From Acidimicrobiia bacterium (lineage in GTDB: Bacteria > Actinomycetota > Acidimicrobiia > Spongiisociales > UBA5794), in the NCBI GenBank assembly GCA_030065575.1, contig JASJDZ010000003.1, positions 1 to 64,000 on the forward strand: 64,000 nt of DNA, in the 5' to 3' direction. The position numbers and the translations under genes are program-made. A model generated the notes under the pieces. That model had not been told where the DNA came from, did no database searches, and was given only the letters and a program-made list of their open reading frames with translations. Positions 48,368 through 64,000 of this stretch are shown piece by piece. Each line of letters opens with the position of its first letter. Positions within the stretch are counted from its first letter, which is position 1.

Positions 48368-49192
48368 ATGTACACACTCAACGACATCATCAGTCGGACC
48401 CCCTCGCCTACTCCCTGGAGCGAAGGCGACAACATCCCCTGGGACGATCCCGGGTTCAGCCGACGCATGCTCGCAGAGCACCTCACCCAGGATCACGACC
48501 TGGCCAGCCGGCGTGCGGAGCTCATCGATTCTCACGTCGCAACCATCGTCGCGGCCATCCCGCCGGCGCCGGGCCGAGTTCTGGATCTGGCGTGCGGACC
48601 GGGCCTGTATCTGAACCGCCTGACCAGACTTGGGTATGCGGGACTCGGGATCGACTTCTCCCCCGCCTCTATCGAGTACGCCCTGGCGCACTCGGGTGAA
48701 GCGGAGTATCGACTTGCCGATCTGCGTACAACCGGGTTCGGCTCCGGATTCGATGCTGCGCTGCTGCTCTACGGACAACTGAACGTGTTTCGCCGCAGCG
48801 AGGCCCGCGAGATCCTCGGCAAGGCGCATGATGCGCTGCAACCGGGCGGGACTCTCGTATTGGAACCGCAGACGGCGGATCACATCCGAGCAGCGGGCCA
48901 AGCCGATCCGGGCTGGAGCGCCCACGAGGAGGGCCTGTTCTCGGATCGGCCCCACCTGCTGCTCACCGAGAGCTTCTGGGACGAACCGGCCCGGACCGCG
49001 ACTCAGAGGTTCCACGTGGTCGATGCCGAGTCAGGCTCAGTCCAGCGCCACGCCATGTCCAACGTTGCGTATACCGAGGCGGAACTGTCCGAGATGCTGG
49101 GCCAGCTGGGATTCGTCGAGATGCGGGTCGCGACATCGCTGACCGGTGAACCACGGGACGACGGCCTCTTCGCCCTGTTTGCGACTGCCTGA
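48368..49192 (+). CDS. Class I SAM-dependent methyltransferase
   Basis: RVLDLACGPGLYLNRLTRLGYAGLGIDFSPASIEYA. Confidence 0.92.
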   Translation: MYTLNDIISRTPSPTPWSEGDNIPWDDPGFSRRMLAEHLTQDHDLASRRAELIDSHVATIVAAIPPAPGRVLDLACGPGLYLNRLTRLGYAGLGIDFSPASIEYALAHSGEAEYRLADLRTTGFGSGFDAALLLYGQLNVFRRSEAREILGKAHDALQPGGTLVLEPQTADHIRAAGQADPGWSAHEEGLFSDRPHLLLTESFWDEPARTATQRFHVVDAESGSVQRHAMSNVAYTEAELSEMLGQLGFVEMRVATSLTGEPRDDGLFALFATA

Positions 49193-49194
49193 GC

Positions 49195-49404
49195 CGAACT
49201 CCCTAGAAGAGCCGCAGCATGGGCGAGATCCACGCCTCAGCTCCGCTGCGCGGACCTGAGGTTTCGAGTTTGGCGAACTCGTTGAGTTCGTCCCCAAACT
49301 CGGCCGATCAGAACAGCTTGAGGAAAGGAGAGTCGATTCCGCGTAGCTCGACGTAGCCTCGGCTCCGCCGAGGTTCGAGTTCGCCCCCTACGGGCTCGAA
49401 CTCC
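49195..49404. repeat. Tandem modules of nucS 3'-end copies alternating with hairpins
   Basis: nucS tail copies at 49203-49240 (A) and 49308-49355 (B) beside the real tail at 49405; hairpins at 49235-49261, 49266-49301, 49357-49373 and 49373-49401. Confidence 0.85.
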
Positions 49405-50064
49405 CTAGAAAAGCCGCAGCATGGGCGAATCAACGCCTCGGAGTTCGTCGTAGTCGATTTCGATGCAACCGATGTCTCGATCCTCGGCGAGCGTTCGCGC
49501 TTGCGGCTTGATTACCTGGGCCACAAACAGTCCCCGGACCGGCGCCAGCCGCTCGTCCCGGTTGAGGAACTCGAGATAGCGGGTCAACTGCTCTACCCCA
49601 TCGATCTCGCCACGTCTCTTGACCTCTACGGCAACCACGCGTTCGTCGGCGTCGCGGCAGAGCAGATCAACCGGGCCAATCGGCGTTGCGTACTCTCGCC
49701 GAATCAGTTCGAGGCCCCGCTCGATGAACTCTGGAGTCTCTGCCAGCAGTCGCTGCAGTTCTAGCTCGACACCGTCCTTCTGCAGGCCGGGGTCCTCCCC
49801 CATCTCATAGGAGGTCTCGAAGTGGATCTCGCCAAACGTGATCGTCAGCGTCTCCCCTTTCGGATTAGCGACGATCCAGCGGCCGTCCTCTTCGATGAGC
49901 TGGTTGGGCGCGTTCATCCAGTTGAGGGGCTTGTATGCACCTCCATCGGCGTGCACGGCCACACAACCATCTGCCTTGACCATGACCAGCCTGGTGGCCA
50001 TGGGGAGATGGGCACTGAGCCGCCCGTCGTAGTCAACCGTGCATTCCGCAACAACGATGCGCAT
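49405..50064 (-). CDS. nucS: Endonuclease NucS/EndoMS (non-canonical mismatch repair)
   Basis: [40 protein letters not shown] catalytic region; C-terminal SPMLRLF. Confidence 0.95.
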
Positions 50065-53767: not shown

Positions 53768-54556
53768 GTGCATCCAGTTCGCATCGCAACCCAGATTCAC
53801 CCGCAGCACGCCGACTACTCCGACATCCGTCGGACCGTCGCCAGGGCCGAAGAACTCGGCGTGGACATCGTCTACAACTGGGATCACTTCTACCCGCTCT
53901 ACGGCGATCCCGATGGCAAGCATTTTGAGTGCTGGACGATGCTCGGTGCCTGGGCTGAGCAGACCACCAACATCGAATTCGGGGCCCTGGTCACCTGCAA
54001 CTCGTACCGCAACCCGCAGCTGCTGGCCGACATGGCGCGCACGGTCGACCACATGTCCGGGGGGCGTCTCATCCTCGGCATCGGCTCCGGATGGTTCCAA
54101 CGCGACTACGACGAGTTTGGCTACGAGTTCGGTACTGCTCCCAGCCGTCTCCGCGACCTCGACGCCAACCTGCCGTTGATCAAGGAGCGCCTCGCCAAGG
54201 GGAATCCGGCCCCGACGAGGAAGATCCCGATACTGATCGGTGGCGGCGGTGAGAAGGTAACGCTACGTATCACCGCACAGCATGCCGACATGTGGCACTT
54301 CTTCGGGACCCCGGAGCAAATGGGTCGCAAGGCCGGCATTCTCGACGAATGGTGCGCCAAAGTTGGTCGCGACCCCGCCGAGATCGAGCGTTCCGCCCAG
54401 GTCGACTACGAGAAGATCACCGGCGATCCGCTCGCCCTTGCCGAGGAGTACTACGCCCTCGGGTTCACCAACTTCACGTTCGGCCTCAACGGCCCCGACT
54501 ACGACTTGACTCCGGTCAAGCCGTGGCTCGAGTGGCGGGACGCCAAGAACGCCTAA
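53768..54556 (+). CDS. LLM-class (F420-dependent type) oxidoreductase
   Basis: NWDHFYPLYGDPDGKHFECWTMLGAWAEQTTNIEFGALVTCNSYRNPQLLADMARTVDHMSGGRLILGIGSGWFQRDYDEFGYEFG. Confidence 0.93.
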   Translation: MHPVRIATQIHPQHADYSDIRRTVARAEELGVDIVYNWDHFYPLYGDPDGKHFECWTMLGAWAEQTTNIEFGALVTCNSYRNPQLLADMARTVDHMSGGRLILGIGSGWFQRDYDEFGYEFGTAPSRLRDLDANLPLIKERLAKGNPAPTRKIPILIGGGGEKVTLRITAQHADMWHFFGTPEQMGRKAGILDEWCAKVGRDPAEIERSAQVDYEKITGDPLALAEEYYALGFTNFTFGLNGPDYDLTPVKPWLEWRDAKNA

Positions 54557-57500
54557 CTACGGCGGGCAGTGGCCCGCACCAGGGTGCTGCCGATTGCCAG
54601 CAGCAGCAGGCCGAGGAGGGCGATCCGGCCCAGGTCGGCACCGGTGCGGGGTAGCTCATCGACGGCGACCGAGGCGGAATCGGCATTGTCGCTGATGTCG
54701 ACCTCGGGAACCGGCCCGGTCACTTCGACAACAGCGGTGTTGGTCGCCTCGGATCCGAAGTCGACGGCAACGGTTGCGCTCACGGTGATCGTGGCGGAGG
54801 CTCCCGGGTCGAGGTCGCCGGCGAGCACACAAGTCACGTCTTGACCGGCAGCGACACAGTCCCAGCCCTCGTTGTCGAGTGCGGCAACGGGCAGCTCATC
54901 TGGCACGGTGTCGGTGACGGTGATCGGGCCCAAGGCTCGGGCCGGGCCCTCGTTGCGAACCGTGATGGTGAACGCAACCAGGCCGCCTCGCTGTTGGTCC
55001 CCGGCGACGGTCTTGGTCAGCACCAGGTTGAACATACCTACGTAGCCAAAGTCGTTGTCCGCAGAATCGGCTCCTGAGACGACTGAGACCGGCGTGTTGT
55101 GGTCCAGGGTCAAGTCGGGATCGAAAGTCTGCAGCATTGGATCGGGGAAGCCGGCCGAATCGACAACAACCACATAGTCGCCGGCAGGGACATCGACGAA
55201 CACGAAGGAGCCGTCGGGGGACGTTACGACGGCGGCTACTACGGAGTCGTCGCCTCCTCCAATCACGCCATCCGGCCCGGGATCGATCAGTTGCACGGGT
55301 ATCCCACCAATGCCGTTCTCACCGGCCCCGATTGCAGTGTCGGCGTCGGCGTCGTTCCAAACGGTGCCGGAGACGCTGCCGAGGGCCGGGAACGAGGTTG
55401 GGGTGGGATCGTTGTTGTCGGTGGGATCGCCGTTGGCGTCCGGATCGATGTCCGTTCCGTTCTGGGACACATCGCCTACGGTCGTACCCGCCGGGGAGGT
55501 TGCCGTTCCGGTCGCCGTATTCCAGTACGTGCCCAGGTCGGCGCCGGGCTCCACAATCAGGTCGATCACTACGGTGGCCGTCGCTCCGGGATCCATGGTG
55601 TCGGCGCCGGTGAGCAGTGCCGTGTCGGTCATGCCATCGAATGTGGGCGATACGTCGAGCTCAATCGAGCTGACACCGACCAGCGACCAGGCGACGGCGT
55701 CGGCGTAAGTAGCGGCCAGGTCGTCGACCACCTGCACACCGCTGAGCACGACGTCGCCCAGGTTGGCGACGGTGAGTGTGTAGCTCACGTCGAATGATCC
55801 GTCGCCGTTGCTCATCGGATCTACGGGGCCGGACTTGGCGAGCCCGAGCAACGGGGCTTCGGAGAAGGACACCGGCGTCGGATCATCCTCGCCGGGATCG
55901 TCGTCATCGTCGACCGTGCCGTCGCTGTCATCGCCGTCGGAGTCGGGGTCGATGCCATCGGTCGATTGGTCGGTGACGGTGCTTCCACTCGGTGTCTCGC
56001 CACTCACATCTGCGGTGTTGTCGTGGGGACCCATATCCGCACCGGGGGTGAGCACGACTGAGATGCTCACCGTTCCGGTCTCTCCCGGATCCAGCGACTG
56101 GCCTGCTGCCAGCACATTGGCACTCGCCGAGCCGTCCCAGCTCGGATTCGCCGTCAGGCTTCCGTCAATGGCGATCGGGCTCGAGGGATCGAGACCGCTG
56201 AATTGCCCGAGGACATCGTCGGTGAGAAGGATATCGACCAGGGTCACGGAGCCGAGGTTCTCCACCGTGAGGAGATAGGTGACCGTGTAGGTGCCGTCTC
56301 CGAGGCTGACGACGCTGCTGACCGCTTTGGCCAGCCCGATGATGGCCGGGCTGATCGACGCAGCGCTTTCGTCGTCTTCGGATTGGTCGCCGTCGTCATT
56401 ACCGGGAGTGCTGTCCGGGTCGAACTGGTCGGCTGCGGAGACCTGCACCGTGTTCTCATGTTCACCTGGAATACCGGATACCGGCCCAACGACTGCCTCA
56501 AAAGTCAGGGCGATCGTGGCCCCGGCTCCTATCGACAGATCCGCCCAGGTGATGGTGCCTCCCGCCAGGACCCCCGCGTTAGAGATCGAGGAGATGCCGC
56601 CGACACCGGAGGGTAGGGCGTCGGTTATGTCGACTCCTGTCGCATCGTTGGGGCCCCGGTTGGTCACGTTGATCGTGTAGACGACCGTTGCGCCCAGTGG
56701 CGGTGTTGCATCGTCTACCGACTTGCTCACCTCGAGGTCGATCTGCTGGGGAACCAGGCCCGCCGCGTCCTCATCATCCTCGGACTGGTCGCCGTCGTCG
56801 TTGCCGGGAGTGCTGTCCGGGTCGTACTGGTCGGCGGCCGTCACCTCGGCAACGTTGGTGAAGTCCGCGGGCGGAGCCTCCACCGTCGCTTCAAACGTCA
56901 GGTCCACCGAACCACCGGCGCCGATCGTGAGACCGGACCAGATCACTGTGGAGCCAACCGCAGAACCACCGTTCGAGATGCTGCCGATGCTGGAGAACCC
57001 GGAAGGCACCACGTCCTCAACTGCAACACCGGTGGCGGTATCGGGGCCCGCATTGGCGACGGTAACCGTGAATGTGACCACATCACCAACGTTGGGGGAC
57101 GGATCGGAGACGGTCTTGGCCAGCGATAGATCGATCTGCTGCGGCACGACACTTGCGGAGTCCTCGTCGTCTTCGGACTGGTCCCCATCGTCGTTGTTGG
57201 GGGTCGAGTCGGTGTCGTACTGGTCGGCGGCAATGACTTCAGCGAAGTTGGCGTAGTCGGCGGGCGGAGCCTCCACCGTCGCCGCAAACGTCAACACCAC
57301 AGAATCGCCGGCCGGGATCGACAAGCCGAGCCACGTAACCGTGTTGACCACTACAACTCCGCCACCGGAGGCGGCGCCGATGCTGGAGTACCCAGCAGGC
57401 ACTACGTCTGCAACGGCAACACCGGTCGCGTTGTCAGGCCCGGCATTGGTGGCAGTGATCGTGAAGGTCACGACATCGCCTACGTTGGGTGTTGCGTCCG

Positions 57501-60500
57501 AGACGGTCTTGGTCAGCGATAGATCGATCTGCTGCGGGACCAGACTCGCCGCATCCTCATCATCCTCCGACTGATCCCCATCGTCGTTACCCGGCGTCGA
57601 ATCCGGATCGAACTGATCCGCGGAGGTGACCTCGGCAGTGTTGACATACTCGCCGGGCGTACCGGTCGGTGGTTCCACAGTGGCCTGGAATGTCAGCGTT
57701 GCCGAACCGCCCGAGGCGATGGTCAGCCCGGACCAGGTGACCGTGGACCCGACCGCAGACCCACCGCCGGAGATGCTGCCGATGTTGGAGAAGCCAGAGG
57801 GCACAACGTCATCAACAGAGACCCCGGTGGCGTCGCTGGGGCCGAAGTTGGTCACCGTGATAGTGAAGGTCACGACATCGCCTACGTTGGGCGCTGCGTT
57901 GGAAACCGTCTTGGCCAAGTCGAGGTCGGCCTCGAGCGGGGATGCCACGGCGGCGTCCTCGTCGTCTTCGGACTGGTCCCCATCGTCGTTGTTGGGGGTG
58001 CTGTCCGGGTCGTATTGGTCGGCGGCCGTCACCTCGGCAACGTTGGTGTATCCCGCGGGAGGGGCCTCCACAGTCGCCTCAAACGTGAGATCCAACGAAC
58101 CACCTGGGCCGATCGTGAGACCGGACCAGGTGACCGTGTTGCCGGCCTCGCTGCCGCCATTGGAGATGCTGCCGATGGCCGAGAAGCCCGACGGTACGGC
58201 GTCCTCGACGGCCACATCCGTGGCAGCAGCGGGGCCGGCATTGGCGACAGTGACCGTGAAGGTCACGACATCGCCAACATTTGGTGATGGATCGGAGACA
58301 GCCTTGGTGAGCGATAGATCGATCTGCCGCGGCACGGCACCTGCCGAGTCCTCGTCATCCTCGGACTGGTCACCGTCATCGTTGCTAGGAGTGGAGTCGG
58401 GGTCGTACTGGTCGGCGGCAGTGACTTCGGCGACGTTGGTGTAGTCGGCGGGCGGAGCTTCCACCGTCGCTTGGAACGTCAGGTCAATCGAGCCACCCGA
58501 AGCGATGGTGAGACCAGACCAGGTGACCGTATTGCCGGCCGCGCTGCCACCATTGGAGATGCTGCCAATGGCCGAGAAGCCATCCGGTACGGCGTCCTCG
58601 ACCGCAACCCCGGTGGCGATATCGGGACCGGCGTTCGACACTGTGACTGTGAAGGTGACGGTGTCGCCGACATTCGGAGATGCGTCCGAGATAGCCTTGG
58701 CCAGCGAGAGGTCGACCCGCTGCGGCACGGCACTTGCCGAGTCCTCGTCATCCTCGGACTGATCGCCGTCGTCATTGCCCGGTGTCGAATCCTGGTCGTA
58801 CTGGTCGGCGGCAGTCACCTGAGCAACGTTGGCGTAATCGGCAGGCGGAGCTTCCACCGTCGCCGCAAACGTCAGGTCCATCGAACCGCCGGCAGCGATG
58901 GTCAGACCGGACCAGGTGACTACCGAACCGACGGCCGAGCCGCCATTCGAGATGGCGCCGATACCCGAGAACCCGGAAGGCACCACATCCTCAACAGCGA
59001 CCCCGGTCGCACTGTCGGGGCCGGCGTTGGCGACCGTCACGGTGAAAGTCACCACATCGCCAACGTTTGGTGAGGGATCGGAGACGGTCTTGGTGAGCGA
59101 CAGATCGATCTGCTGCGGCACCAGACTCGCCGCATCCTCATCATCCTCAGACTGATCCCCATCGTCGTTGTTGGGGGTCGAGTCGGTGTCGTACTGGTCG
59201 GCGGCAATGACTTCAACGACGTTGGTGAAGTCGGCAGGCGGAGCCTCCACAGTCGCCGCAAACGTCAGGTCCATCGAACCGCCGGCAGCGATAGTCAAAC
59301 CAGACCACGTGACCGTACTGCCAACCGCAGAACCACCATTCGAGATTGCGGCGATGCCCGAGAAGCCATCCGGCACGGCGTCCTCGACCGCAACCCCGGT
59401 CGCAATGTCGGGACCGACGTTCGACACAGTGACTGTGAACGTGACCACATCACCGACATTCGGCGACGCATTGGACACCGACTTTGCCAGCGAGAGGTCG
59501 ATCTGCTGCGGGACCAGGATCGCGGAGTCCTCATCGTCCTCCGACTGATCACCATCATCATTATCCGGGGTCGAATCCGGATCGTATTGGTCGGCAGCAG
59601 TGACTTCGGCAACGTTGGTGAAGTCGGCGGGCGGAGCCTCCACAGTCGCCTCAAACGTGAGGTCCACCGAACCACCGGAAACAACGGTGAGACCGGACCA
59701 GGTGACCGTATTGCCGACCGCAGAACCACCGTTGGAGATACTGCCGATGCTCGAGAACCCAGACGGAACCGCGTCCTCAACCGCAACCGTGGTCGCCGCG
59801 TCAGGACCGGCATTCGACACAGTGACTGTGAACGTCACCACATCGCCAACGTTCGGTGAAGGATCGGAAACGGTCTTGGCCAGCGACAGGTCGACCTGCT
59901 GCGGCATCAGGCTCGCCGCATCCTCATCATCCTCCGACTGATCCCCGTCGTCATTGCCGGGGGTGCTGTCCGGGTCGTACTGATCGGCAGCAGTCACCTC
60001 AGCAACATTGGAATATCCGGCGGGCGGAGCTTCCACCGTCGCCGCAAACGTCAGATCCACCGAACCGCCGGCGGCGATGACAAGACCGGACCAGGCCACC
60101 GTGGACCCAACTGCGGAACCACCGTTGGAGATGGCGGCGATGCTCGAGAAGCCATCCGGCACGCTGTCCTCGACTGAGACACCCGTCGCACTGTCGGGGC
60201 CGGCGTTCGACACTGTGACTGTGAACGTGACCACGTCACCAACATTCGGTGATGGACTAGAAACCGTCTTGGTCAACGACAGATCGATCAGCTGCGGAAT
60301 CGCCGATACCGCATCCTCGTCATCCTCAGACTGATCACCGTCATCGTTGTTGGGAGTGCTGTCGGGGTCGTACTGGTCGGCGGCAGTGACTTCGGCGACG
60401 TTGGTGTAATCCGCAGGCGGAGCCTCCACCGTCGCCTCAAACGTCAACACCACCGAACCACCAGAAGCGATAGTCAAGCCAGACCAGGTCACCGCGGACC

Positions 60501-63500
60501 CAACTGCGGAACCACCATTCGAGATGCTGCCGATAGCCGAGAAGCCATCCGGCACGCTGTCCTCGACCGCAACACCGGTCGCAGTGTCGGGACCGGCGTT
60601 CGCCACCGTCACCGTGAAGGTCACCACATCACCAACACTTGGTGATGGATCAGAAACCGTCTTGGTCAACGACAGATCGATCAGTTGCGGAACCGCCGAT
60701 ACCGCATCCTCGTCATCCTCAGACTGATCACCGTCGTCATTGTCCGGTGTCGAATCCGGATCGAATCGATCGGAGCCGGTGACCTCAGCCACGTTCTTGT
60801 ACTCGTCGGCCGCACCAGTCGGCGGATCGACGACTGCGTCGAAGGTGAGAATGACCGTATCGAGAGCGGTGATGCTGAGACCGGACCAGGTGACCGTATT
60901 GCCAACCACGCCGCCACCGTTGGAGATACTGCCGATGCCGGAGAACCCGGACGGCACAACATCCTCCACCGCAACACCGGCAACGTCATCTGGCCCGAAG
61001 TTCGCCACGGTGATGGTGAAGGTCACGGTGTCTCCGACATTCGGAGTTGCATTCGACACGGACTTCGTCAGTTCCAGGTCTGCCACTTCGGGGACCACGG
61101 ACGCAGAATCCTCGTCGTCTTCGGATTGGTCGCCGTCGTCGTTGTTCGGAGTTGAGTCGGGATCGAACTGATCAGAGGCGGTCACCTCAGCAACGTTCAC
61201 GTACTCGCTCGGCGCACCGGTGGGCGCAACAACGTCGGCCTCGAAAGTCAGGATGATCGATCCGCCGGAGCTGATGGCCAGTCCAGACCAGGTGACCGTC
61301 GACCCGGCAGCGATTCCGCCGCCGGAAACGTTGGCGACATTCGTGTAGCCAGAGGGGACATCATCGACAACGGCAATGCCGGAGGCGTCGTCGGAGCCCA
61401 GGTTGACCACGGTGATGGTGAACGTGACTGTGTCACCAACGCCGGGAGTTGCGTCGGAGACGGTCTTGCTGAGCTCGAGATCGGCCTCGGTCGGAAGTAG
61501 ACCAACGTTGTCCTCGTCATCCTCGGATTGATCACCGTCGTCGTTGTTCGGAGTGGAGTCGGGATCGAATTGATCGGAGGCGGTCACCTCGGCCATGTTG
61601 AGATAGGCGGCAGGTGGCGCTTGGACCTCGGCCTGGAAGGTGACTGAAGTCGAACCGCCTGCCGGTACCGATAGGCCGGACCAGGTCACTACGTTCCCAA
61701 CCGCCAATCCGCCGTCGGAGATGCTCCCAATCGATGCATACCCGTTGGGCACTGTGTCGGCCAGGGAGACGCCGGTTGCGTCGTCCGGACCGGCATTGCT
61801 GACGCTCAGGGTGAAGGTCACGACCTCACCCACCAGCGGCGCGCTGTCGGAAACGGACTTGACCAGCGAGAGGTCGGCCTCCTGCGGCACAACCGCAGTC
61901 GCATCCTCGTCGTCCTCGGACTGGTCCCCGTCGTCATTGTCCGGGGTGCTGTCCGGGTCGTAGCGATCGGAGTCGACGACCTCAGCAACGTTCACGTACT
62001 CACCCGGCGCACCGGTTGGGGCGGCAACGGTCACATCGAAGGTCACCGCAGTCGACCCGCCGGCGGCGACCGCCAACCCGGTCCAGGAGATAACTCCGCC
62101 AGCTTCGCTGCCGCCATCGGAGATGTTGGTGATGGCGCTGTAGCCGGCCGGAACTACATCCTCTATGTCAACCCCGGTGGCGTCGTCCGGGCCGCCGTTG
62201 GAGACAGTGATAGTGAAGGTGACGGTGTCGCCGACATTTGGCGAGGCATCCGAGACTGTCTTGACCAGCGAGAGGTCGGCTTGCAGCGGGGTGACTCCGG
62301 CCCCATCCTCATCGTCCTCGGATTGATCGCCATCGTCGTTGTCCGGTGCCGAATCGGGGTCGCGCTGGTCGGAGGCAGTCACCTCAGCCGTATTGTCGTA
62401 ATCGGCCGTTGGTGCCAACACCTCGGCATCGAAGGTGACCGCAGTGGTTCCCCCGGCGGGCACGGTAAGGCCGGACCAGGTCACGGTCGAGCCCACGGCG
62501 GAACCGCCCGACGACACATTGACGATATTCGTGTACCCGTCCGGGACCGAGTCGGCGACCGCAACGCCGGTGGCGTCGTTGGGGCCGGCATTGGAGATCG
62601 TGATGGTGAAGGTGACGGTCTGACCCACATCCGGAGTGGCGTCGCTGACTGTCTTGGCCAGCGAGAGATCTGCCGCCTGCGGAGTCACCGTCTCGTTGGT
62701 CTCGTCATCCTCAGATTGATCGCCGTCGTCGTTATCCGGTGTCGAATCTGGATCGAGTGCGGCCGATGCGGTGACCTGGGCCACGTTCAGATACTCATCG
62801 GGAGCTCCGGATGGTGCTTGCACCGTCGCGGCGTATGTGAGGTTGATCGACGTAGAGGCTGGGATCGAGGCCACAGTCCAGATGAGGGTTGGGACTGCCG
62901 AGGCGTCCTGCGTGCTGCCTCCGGCGATCGAACCAGTCTCGTAGGCGAGCCCGGCGGGTAGGACGTCGGCCACCGCAACGTTGGTAGCGGTGTCCGGCCC
63001 GTCGTTGACCAGGGTGAGCACGTAGGTGATGGTGTCACCCACGTTGGGATTGATGTCGGATGCTGACTTGAAGAGGCTGAGGTCGGCTCGAGCGGTGAGC
63101 ACCGTCTCGGTGTCGGTGTCCGAGGTGGGTGTCCCTGCGGGGGCGAGCCCAACAACCGTTGCGGTGTTGGTGACCTGGCCGGTAGTCGCGTCCGCCGCAG
63201 TGACCGTGTAGGGAGCGGTACACGCCATCGTCCCCCCGGGAGCCAGAGTCGAACCCTGCGCCGGAGCGCACGTGATGGCGCCGAGCCCGGGCAGCGGGTC
63301 GCTGACCGTCACGTTGGTCAGCGACACGTCGCCGGTATTGGCCACGTCGAATGAGTAGGTGAGGGTGTCCCCCACCGAGACATCGCCGGAGCCATCCTCA
63401 TCGGCATTTGCGTCCAGGTGTTTAACCAGCGTGATCGTCGGGCTGCCTTCGATCGGGGTGGTGAGTGAGTCGGTGTCGCTGACCGGGGTGGAGTCGGGAT

Positions 63501-64000
63501 CAACGGCATCGACAGTCGCGGTGTTGTCGATCTGGCCGGTGTCGACATCGGTCTGGGTGACCACGTACTCGGCGCTACAAGTCAGCGTTGCCCCCGGCGT
63601 GAGCACGGCCGGCTGAGCCGGAACACAGGTCAGCGCACCCAACCCGGGCATCGGGTCCGAAATCACCGTATTCGACAGCGTCACGTTGCCTGTGTTGGTG
63701 GCCTCGAACTGATATGTGAGGGTGTCATCGCGAGTGACGCCGCCGGAACCGTCCTCATCGTCGTTGCCAACAAGCGTCTTCTCCAGCGTAATTGACGGTG
63801 TCTGGGCGACGAGAACCTGCTCGTCGTCGGTGTCGGAAACAAGTGTGGAGTCGGGAGAGAAGCCTTCGGCCGTGGCCGTGTTGACTATCTGGCCAAGATC
63901 GATGTCGGTCTGAGTCACCGAGTAGGTAGCCGAACATGAGATGGTCTCGCCGGGAAGCAGCACCGCGGGCGCAGCCGGCGTGCAGGTGAGAGCACTGAGC
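54553..64000 (-). CDS. Giant multidomain cell-surface protein with DUF11-type repeats, SdrD B-like domain and LPRTG sorting signal (partial, N-terminus beyond window end)
   Basis: Frame remains open and homologous to the repeats up to 64000 (LSALTCTPAAPAVLLPGETISCSATY). C-terminus is DELPRTGADLGRIALLGLLLLAIGSTLVRATARRS. Confidence 0.93.
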   Translation of the reverse strand, partial: LSALTCTPAAPAVLLPGETISCSATYSVTQTDIDLGQIVNTATAEGFSPDSTLVSDTDDEQVLVAQTPSITLEKTLVGNDDEDGSGGVTRDDTLTYQFEATNTGNVTLSNTVISDPMPGLGALTCVPAQPAVLTPGATLTCSAEYVVTQTDVDTGQIDNTATVDAVDPDSTPVSDTDSLTTPIEGSPTITLVKHLDANADEDGSGDVSVGDTLTYSFDVANTGDVSLTNVTVSDPLPGLGAITCAPAQGSTLAPGGTMACTAPYTVTAADATTGQVTNTATVVGLAPAGTPTSDTDTETVLTARADLSLFKSASDINPNVGDTITYVLTLVNDGPDTATNVAVADVLPAGLAYETGSIAGGSTQDASAVPTLIWTVASIPASTSINLTYAATVQAPSGAPDEYLNVAQVTASAALDPDSTPDNDDGDQSEDDETNETVTPQAADLSLAKTVSDATPDVGQTVTFTITISNAGPNDATGVAVADSVPDGYTNIVNVSSGGSAVGSTVTWSGLTVPAGGTTAVTFDAEVLAPTADYDNTAEVTASDQRDPDSAPDNDDGDQSEDDEDGAGVTPLQADLSLVKTVSDASPNVGDTVTFTITVSNGGPDDATGVDIEDVVPAGYSAITNISDGGSEAGGVISWTGLAVAAGGSTAVTFDVTVAAPTGAPGEYVNVAEVVDSDRYDPDSTPDNDDGDQSEDDEDATAVVPQEADLSLVKSVSDSAPLVGEVVTFTLSVSNAGPDDATGVSLADTVPNGYASIGSISDGGLAVGNVVTWSGLSVPAGGSTSVTFQAEVQAPPAAYLNMAEVTASDQFDPDSTPNNDDGDQSEDDEDNVGLLPTEADLELSKTVSDATPGVGDTVTFTITVVNLGSDDASGIAVVDDVPSGYTNVANVSGGGIAAGSTVTWSGLAISSGGSIILTFEADVVAPTGAPSEYVNVAEVTASDQFDPDSTPNNDDGDQSEDDEDSASVVPEVADLELTKSVSNATPNVGDTVTFTITVANFGPDDVAGVAVEDVVPSGFSGIGSISNGGGVVGNTVTWSGLSITALDTVILTFDAVVDPPTGAADEYKNVAEVTGSDRFDPDSTPDNDDGDQSEDDEDAVSAVPQLIDLSLTKTVSDPSPSVGDVVTFTVTVANAGPDTATGVAVEDSVPDGFSAIGSISNGGSAVGSAVTWSGLTIASGGSVVLTFEATVEAPPADYTNVAEVTAADQYDPDSTPNNDDGDQSEDDEDAVSAIPQLIDLSLTKTVSSPSPNVGDVVTFTVTVSNAGPDSATGVSVEDSVPDGFSSIAAISNGGSAVGSTVAWSGLVIAAGGSVDLTFAATVEAPPAGYSNVAEVTAADQYDPDSTPGNDDGDQSEDDEDAASLMPQQVDLSLAKTVSDPSPNVGDVVTFTVTVSNAGPDAATTVAVEDAVPSGFSSIGSISNGGSAVGNTVTWSGLTVVSGGSVDLTFEATVEAPPADFTNVAEVTAADQYDPDSTPDNDDGDQSEDDEDSAILVPQQIDLSLAKSVSNASPNVGDVVTFTVTVSNVGPDIATGVAVEDAVPDGFSGIAAISNGGSAVGSTVTWSGLTIAAGGSMDLTFAATVEAPPADFTNVVEVIAADQYDTDSTPNNDDGDQSEDDEDAASLVPQQIDLSLTKTVSDPSPNVGDVVTFTVTVANAGPDSATGVAVEDVVPSGFSGIGAISNGGSAVGSVVTWSGLTIAAGGSMDLTFAATVEAPPADYANVAQVTAADQYDQDSTPGNDDGDQSEDDEDSASAVPQRVDLSLAKAISDASPNVGDTVTFTVTVSNAGPDIATGVAVEDAVPDGFSAIGSISNGGSAAGNTVTWSGLTIASGGSIDLTFQATVEAPPADYTNVAEVTAADQYDPDSTPSNDDGDQSEDDEDSAGAVPRQIDLSLTKAVSDPSPNVGDVVTFTVTVANAGPAAATDVAVEDAVPSGFSAIGSISNGGSEAGNTVTWSGLTIGPGGSLDLTFEATVEAPPAGYTNVAEVTAADQYDPDSTPNNDDGDQSEDDEDAAVASPLEADLDLAKTVSNAAPNVGDVVTFTITVTNFGPSDATGVSVDDVVPSGFSNIGSISGGGSAVGSTVTWSGLTIASGGSATLTFQATVEPPTGTPGEYVNTAEVTSADQFDPDSTPGNDDGDQSEDDEDAASLVPQQIDLSLTKTVSDATPNVGDVVTFTITATNAGPDNATGVAVADVVPAGYSSIGAASGGGVVVVNTVTWLGLSIPAGDSVVLTFAATVEAPPADYANFAEVIAADQYDTDSTPNNDDGDQSEDDEDSASVVPQQIDLSLAKTVSDPSPNVGDVVTFTVTVANAGPDTATGVAVEDVVPSGFSSIGSISNGGSAVGSTVIWSGLTIGAGGSVDLTFEATVEAPPADFTNVAEVTAADQYDPDSTPGNDDGDQSEDDEDAAGLVPQQIDLEVSKSVDDATPPLGATVVYTINVTNRGPNDATGVDITDALPSGVGGISSISNAGVLAGGTITWADLSIGAGATIALTFEAVVGPVSGIPGEHENTVQVSAADQFDPDSTPGNDDGDQSEDDESAASISPAIIGLAKAVSSVVSLGDGTYTVTYLLTVENLGSVTLVDILLTDDVLGQFSGLDPSSPIAIDGSLTANPSWDGSASANVLAAGQSLDPGETGTVSISVVLTPGADMGPHDNTADVSGETPSGSTVTDQSTDGIDPDSDGDDSDGTVDDDDDPGEDDPTPVSFSEAPLLGLAKSGPVDPMSNGDGSFDVSYTLTVANLGDVVLSGVQVVDDLAATYADAVAWSLVGVSSIELDVSPTFDGMTDTALLTGADTMDPGATATVVIDLIVEPGADLGTYWNTATGTATSPAGTTVGDVSQNGTDIDPDANGDPTDNNDPTPTSFPALGSVSGTVWNDADADTAIGAGENGIGGIPVQLIDPGPDGVIGGGDDSVVAAVVTSPDGSFVFVDVPAGDYVVVVDSAGFPDPMLQTFDPDLTLDHNTPVSVVSGADSADNDFGYVGMFNLVLTKTVAGDQQRGGLVAFTITVRNEGPARALGPITVTDTVPDELPVAALDNEGWDCVAAGQDVTCVLAGDLDPGASATITVSATVAVDFGSEATNTAVVEVTGPVPEVDISDNADSASVAVDELPRTGADLGRIALLGLLLLAIGSTLVRATARRS
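56350..63087 (-). repeat. 17-unit tandem DUF11 repeat array (about 131-134 aa, about 0.4 kb per unit)
   Basis: 17 occurrences of NDDGDQSEDDE, each closing a unit that begins (A/I/V)DL(S/E/D)(L/V).K..SD...VG..V. Confidence 0.93.

Follow-up and report, generated by a model that had tools for sequence, protein, structure and literature searches.

Fungal mitochondrial hybrid genes combine a resident gene with a mobile ORF carrying a foreign C-terminus, as described for atp6 of Allomyces and for atp6, atp9, cox2 and nad3 of Glomus; the native end is displaced, DNA identity is low, the protein is conserved, and a homing endonuclease ORF lies in the insert (PMC3630166). This C-terminus swap is the closest published pattern to the arrangement at the 3' end of nucS in an Acidimicrobiia genome, where a foreign 3' end appears fused to the resident gene, the native end is displaced downstream and the differences are mostly synonymous. 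The distal tails adjoin the convergent neighbour and the codon differences are synonymous, as expected of a fungal-type replacement. Unlike the fungal hybrid genes with their endonuclease ORF, the arrangement consists of tails and double hairpins only, lies on a bacterial chromosome and is repeated in series. Since no endonuclease is encoded, membership in the fungal-type system is not claimed. To our knowledge the pattern is otherwise known only from fungal mitochondria, and a limited literature search for bacterial counterparts returned nothing usable.

The double-hairpin element, termed E, also has known counterparts in form. The Allomyces DHE are small palindromic mitochondrial elements of two stem-loops, and we know of no report associating mitochondrial hairpin elements with displaced gene tails. 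Repetitive hairpin elements (RHE) have been described in sponge mitochondrial DNA (PMC2800124). E resembles DHE and RHE as a small palindrome scattered in the genome, and differs from them in host and in sequence. The REP/REPIN palindromes with their RAYT (Y1) transposase (PMC3116915) are paired short palindromes dispersed in bacterial genomes, as E is. However, the hairpins of E stand in direct tandem with triloops, and the Y1_Tnp (PF01797) transposase is found in none of the seven genus genomes, control genomes being positive. E starts with GAGTT and ends with AGGC; the foot tag of REP palindromes, GTAG or CGTC, is absent from it.

The nucS gene lies in a window of 64,000 nt (the whole stretch of DNA that was analysed) from a draft genome (2.8 Mb, 80 contigs, completeness 77%) whose nearest named nucS relatives are Acidimicrobiia MAGs. 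The original prediction placed two further nucS tails with stop codons 3' of the gene. Its coordinates and edits proved right; in a scan for a second tail 3' of nucS, the real sequence reached a score of 28, whereas shuffled sequence averaged ~9 and never exceeded 14. The double hairpins between the tails had been missed. The features of the locus are:

49405..50064, minus strand: nucS (EndoMS), intact gene, an ORF with Pfam NucS_N and NucS_C
49405-49452, minus strand: current nucS C-terminal tail with TAG, ending the nucS ORF
49356..49403, minus strand: E1, double-hairpin element GAGTTCG..CGAACTC GAA CCTCGGC GGA GCCGAGG C, from its DNA fold and family matches across the genus
49308..49355, minus strand: tail relic B, YVELRGIDSPFLKLF with a TGA stop, mostly synonymous to the nucS tail
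49234..49301, minus strand: E2, larger double-hairpin element ending in GCTGAGGC, from its DNA fold
49203..49233, minus strand: tail relic A, read as the native nucS tail, displaced and carrying one inserted nucleotide
49187..49202, minus strand: GGAGTTCG and GCTCAGGC, native flank, including the stop codon of the convergent methyltransferase
48368..49192, plus strand: convergent methyltransferase gene (Pfam Methyltransf_25)

Read along the minus strand, the current tail TACGACGAACTCCGAGGCGTTGATTCGCCCATGCTGCGGCTTTTCTAG is followed by one G, E1, tail B, TCGGCC, E2, tail A, GGAGTTCG, GCTCAGGC and the methyltransferase gene. Relic B begins exactly at the end of E1 and relic A exactly at the end of E2. 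Together with the terminal GAGGC of E2, a shared microhomology, relic A reads GAGGCGTGGATCTCGCCC through to TAG. It differs from the current tail by two substitutions (GTT>GTG and CTT>CTC) and an inserted C, so that 31/33 nt are the same with the inserted base left out. The predicted continuation of this identity past the stop is borne out by a 32-nt direct repeat (97%, one mismatch) shared by the current tail and relic A, which extends into GGGAGTTCG. Relic B matches the nucS 3' ends of congeners with 79% over 47 nt (E ~3e-4 per genome). Folding as DNA gave -17.8 kcal/mol (z -4.4) for E1 and -26.5 kcal/mol (z -7.6) for E2, values equalled by 0/200 shuffles in each case. An Rfam scan of the window returned no match. 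The segment 49187..49202, in which the first 7 nt of E1 appear joined to a typical E end, might at a stretch be a collapsed third element. The tail farthest from nucS lies directly against the convergent neighbour, as the nucS end does in relatives, and is therefore taken as the probable displaced native end.

Comparison with the nucS 3' flanks of relatives showed that in at least three congeners a convergent gene directly follows the nucS stop, with no insert. Among 117 nucS loci scanned (some of them duplicates), one further displaced tail was found (L137), in a Nitriliruptorales MAG, a distant actinobacterium. The order there is nucS, a SnoaL-like gene, a displaced tail (LRGLDSHEMR..) that has lost one base, and a convergent gene of the same type as the one directly after nucS in another locus (L112). 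The SnoaL-like gene lies at L137:3712-4116, and a small hairpin (CGCGTGTGGGAACGCG) is found at the joint with the displaced nucS tail.

The same architecture is present at other genes. In a blind scan, gene ends were compared with downstream stop-terminated peptides. Applied to 2375 ORF ends (some from spurious ORFs) in 455 kb of this genome, the scan returned nucS, parB and two ordinary tandem repeats. About one third of this genome was sampled, and the ~1.5 Mb sampled in all, congeners included, held one more true case (L074/L267). Widening the search to 3 kb downstream in 1.7 Mb of loci added only repeats. The parB gene ends in ..DDLERIYRLLN and a stop, followed by a double hairpin, RIYRLLN and a stop, a second double hairpin, DDLERIYRLLN and a stop, and the native flank. 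Its relics of 7 and 11 residues differ from the current tail by 6 codons per comparison, all synonymously. The gene is single-tailed without an insert in 29/29 relatives whose loci were read; it ends in LLS or ILS in six congeners, and in LLN in all three tails here. The parB hairpins are of a separate sequence type from E with the same general plan, and the two units differ by compensatory changes. In the third case, from a congener (G006), a gene ending in WGTPNN is followed by E and then by a second GTPNN tail, and the tail with 24 nt of non-coding flank is repeated on either side of E, edge to edge. Congeners of this gene have no second tail and end in GTPNG, GTAAG, GTPSN or GTPAG. Since parB and the third gene behave like nucS, a special role of nucS or of its clamp-binding tail finds no support. 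Two relics are carried by each of nucS and parB; the duplicated-tail events therefore cluster at few genes. Other candidates were set aside as ordinary tandem repeats, namely the tail duplications at L195, L227 and L243, which are near-identical nucleotides in long hairpin arrays, and matches that fall in frames antisense to the repeat gene (54553-63963). At a panB-like gene (L289), a parB-type element stands without any tail relic.

The codons of the tails were compared with simulations in which the observed number of differences was placed at random positions. Between the current nucS tail and relic B, 18/48 nt differ and 12/16 codons keep their meaning, a result that none of 200,000 simulations matched. 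With sites treated as independent, P is 1e-5 for the current and distal parB tails, 1.5e-5 for the current and middle tails, 9e-5 for the middle and distal tails, and 8e-4 for the GTPNN tails. The simulation rules out neutral drift of a non-coding copy after simple duplication. The current nucS tail and relic B are identical at 30/48 positions, compared with 31-41 between congeners and the current tail; the current and distal parB tails are identical at 29/36, in a congener range of 22-30. A non-coding copy would lose its amino acids; the relics diverged as coding sequence, to a degree like that between species of the genus, and relic B behaves, as the original prediction had it, like the 3' end of a working gene that came from a different lineage. 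The tails are too short for trees. The parB and GTPNN relics share residues absent from the congeners examined (LLN against LLS in parB), so the donors were probably nearer sister species outside the collections; no genome carrying the sequences of tail B or the parB relics was found.

The E family was searched with the pattern AACTCGAACCTCNNCGNAGNNGAGGC, allowing up to three mismatches. Matches were found in 6/7 genus genomes, 26 besides E1, and the reversed control pattern gave 0. A related E pattern, searched for in 50 genomes of the bacterial family, matched five genomes of this genus and 3/43 others; the E family is nearly confined to this Acidimicrobiia genus. The typical length is 42 nt, and nine copies of that length fit a covarying plan: a 9-bp stem closed by a 3-nt loop, a 3-nt linker, a 7-bp stem closed by another 3-nt loop, and a final C. 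Of the pair cells (n=144), 97.9% are paired, with 23 two-sided changes and 0 wobble-type one-sided changes; this lack of G-T intermediates suggests that the palindrome matters as DNA. Some copies (L081, L085) appear to sit within coding linkers. With its dispersed copies, its conserved structure and the empty sites at nucS and parB in relatives, E has the features of a mobile palindromic element.

In 5/5 cases in the genus, the right-hand joint coincides with the base of the final hairpin, with the sequences GCCGAGGC/TACGTC, GCTGAGGC/GTGGAT, GGGTCCGC/ATTTAC, GGGTTCGC/GATGAC and GGACAGGC/GGGTAC (the slash marks the joint). Junction microhomology is 0-7 nt and exceeds 3 nt only between E2 and relic A (GAGGCGT). 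The lengths of the relics vary from about 20 to 51 nt. The explanation preferred here, given a probability of about one half, is that the extra tails are fossils of earlier gene 3' ends, left by recombination with sister-species alleles and bounded on the right by the double hairpin. Occasionally, a gene would recombine with its counterpart in a sister species and take over that allele's 3' end. The exchange on the left would fall somewhere within the homologous gene, and the right joint would be made at the end of E, where 0-7 nt of microhomology accompany its fusion to the tail of the recipient. The gene would thereby gain an intact foreign tail, stop and E, leaving the old tail behind, and repeats at one gene would build an array of alternating tails and E. 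At nucS, the native tail A would have been followed by a foreign end (B with E2) and then by a native-like end (the current tail with E1). The sister-species donors, the order of events and the directing of the right-hand junction by E are what we infer from these arrangements. A gene that already carries E seems to acquire further units, for instance by unequal exchange when alleles from different species both bear E. Ku is present in 6/7 genus genomes, this one included, which would allow end joining; a search for ComEC was positive in six congeners and negative in this genome (77% complete). Homology-facilitated illegitimate recombination, which joins DNA by homology on one side and by microhomology on the other, would likewise leave behind the gene end of the recipient. 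However, it does not predict a right junction always at the hairpin base, within ~50 nt of the stop. Several observations speak against the allele-exchange explanation: relics as short as about 20-51 nt are unexpected from random right breakpoints, the parB hairpins belong to another sequence family than E, no donor genome for tail B or the parB relics was found, the other E copies lack matching flanks, and this genome yielded no ComEC. A stronger and more tentative proposal is that the unit of tail, stop and double hairpin is the mobile piece of a hairpin-guided system of the genus moving gene 3' ends between species. The hairpin end would be joined precisely into the recipient tail and the gene kept intact by the tail brought along, in the manner of the fungal mitochondrial C-terminus swaps but with no encoded endonuclease. 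None of the inserts at nucS, parB and L074 is long enough to hold a homing endonuclease gene, and the insert of L137 is the SnoaL-like gene.

The rival that survives best, although it is unlikely, takes E as a mobile palindrome inserting beside the stop with a long target duplication (20-50 nt), after which the tails drift or the upstream copy is exchanged later by homologous recombination. At L074 and nucS E1, the left flank stops and the right flank begins precisely at the edges of E. Insertion with duplication would also account for relics that are short and of similar length, and for the near identity of the current nucS tail and relic A, post-stop GGGAGTTCG included. However, simple drift is excluded for relic B and both parB relics by their synonymous differences (P <5e-6 to 9e-5), so that a later allele exchange is needed anyway. 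A general tie between E and flanking duplications was also rejected: edge-to-edge matches occur only at nucS E1 and L074, and at the other copies (~20 sites) the flanks at the edges do not match. E therefore does not usually create such duplications.

The original prediction offered two readings: repeated replacement of nucS alleles, or insertion of an element at the nucS 3' end with regeneration of the tail, leaving att-like scars. The relatives without an insert and the double hairpins at the tail junctions agree with its general form. Integrating elements that restore gene 3' ends are well established, and the cargo gene between the current and displaced tails of L137 would fit the deletion of such an element from attachment sites at the nucS and parB 3' ends, the tail having been restored by attP. 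Classical integrase scars are nevertheless improbable, since the stretches between the tails are free of integrase genes at every locus, no att core is common to the genes, the junction positions vary from copy to copy, and the double-hairpin geometry recurs at unrelated genes. Tandem duplication through microhomology has a similarly slim chance: E2 ends in GAGGC, the tail reads CGA GGC GT and GAGGCGT is common at the junction, so that copy A could arise without foreign DNA, but copy B and the parB relics with their synonymous differences could not. Chaining of alleles from co-existing strains during metagenome assembly might be suspected in a draft of 80 contigs and 77% completeness, but is highly improbable, as the junctions share at most 7 nt, far under usual assembler word sizes, and the pattern occurs at two loci here, one in G006 and one in the distant MAG.

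If the allele-exchange explanation is true, bacterial chromosomes would hold a readable record of past gene-end allele swaps, and short palindromic repeats, usually deemed inert, would mark or cause such swaps. A rare mitochondrial phenomenon, the foreign C-terminus with a displaced native end, would extend to bacteria without an encoded enzyme, and the locus would offer a concrete test of palindromic-repeat movement in bacteria without RAYT transposases. The suffix scan, in which stop-terminated amino acids match and codons do not, is applicable to all genomes.

Several further features of the repeats were observed. E copies ending in TCAGGC (L093, L087 and L310) give the last Ala codon and TGA (GCC TGA) of a convergent ORF, and the window methyltransferase likewise finishes on GCC TGA, inside GCTCAGGC (49187-49194). 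A second abundant hairpin family of the genus (ACCCCCCTACCCCCG..CGGTACTTTCCCCCC..GGGGGGACTGAC) was seen at six loci (L073, L077, L078, L086, L089 and L090), with E copies nested in its distal hairpin. At L093 (G000:C43), a diverged tandem array of ~50-nt hairpin units with an E copy at its end lies between two convergent genes. Tandem nested hairpins (TTTTGGCGGATCTGAGGCCCATAT..GGGCCTGGTGTACGCCAAAA) lie 3' of genes at L195, L179 and L227 (G000). The minus-strand repeat gene at 54553-63963 of the window is a 3136-aa ORF that, by eye, resembles DUF11-type surface-protein repeats.
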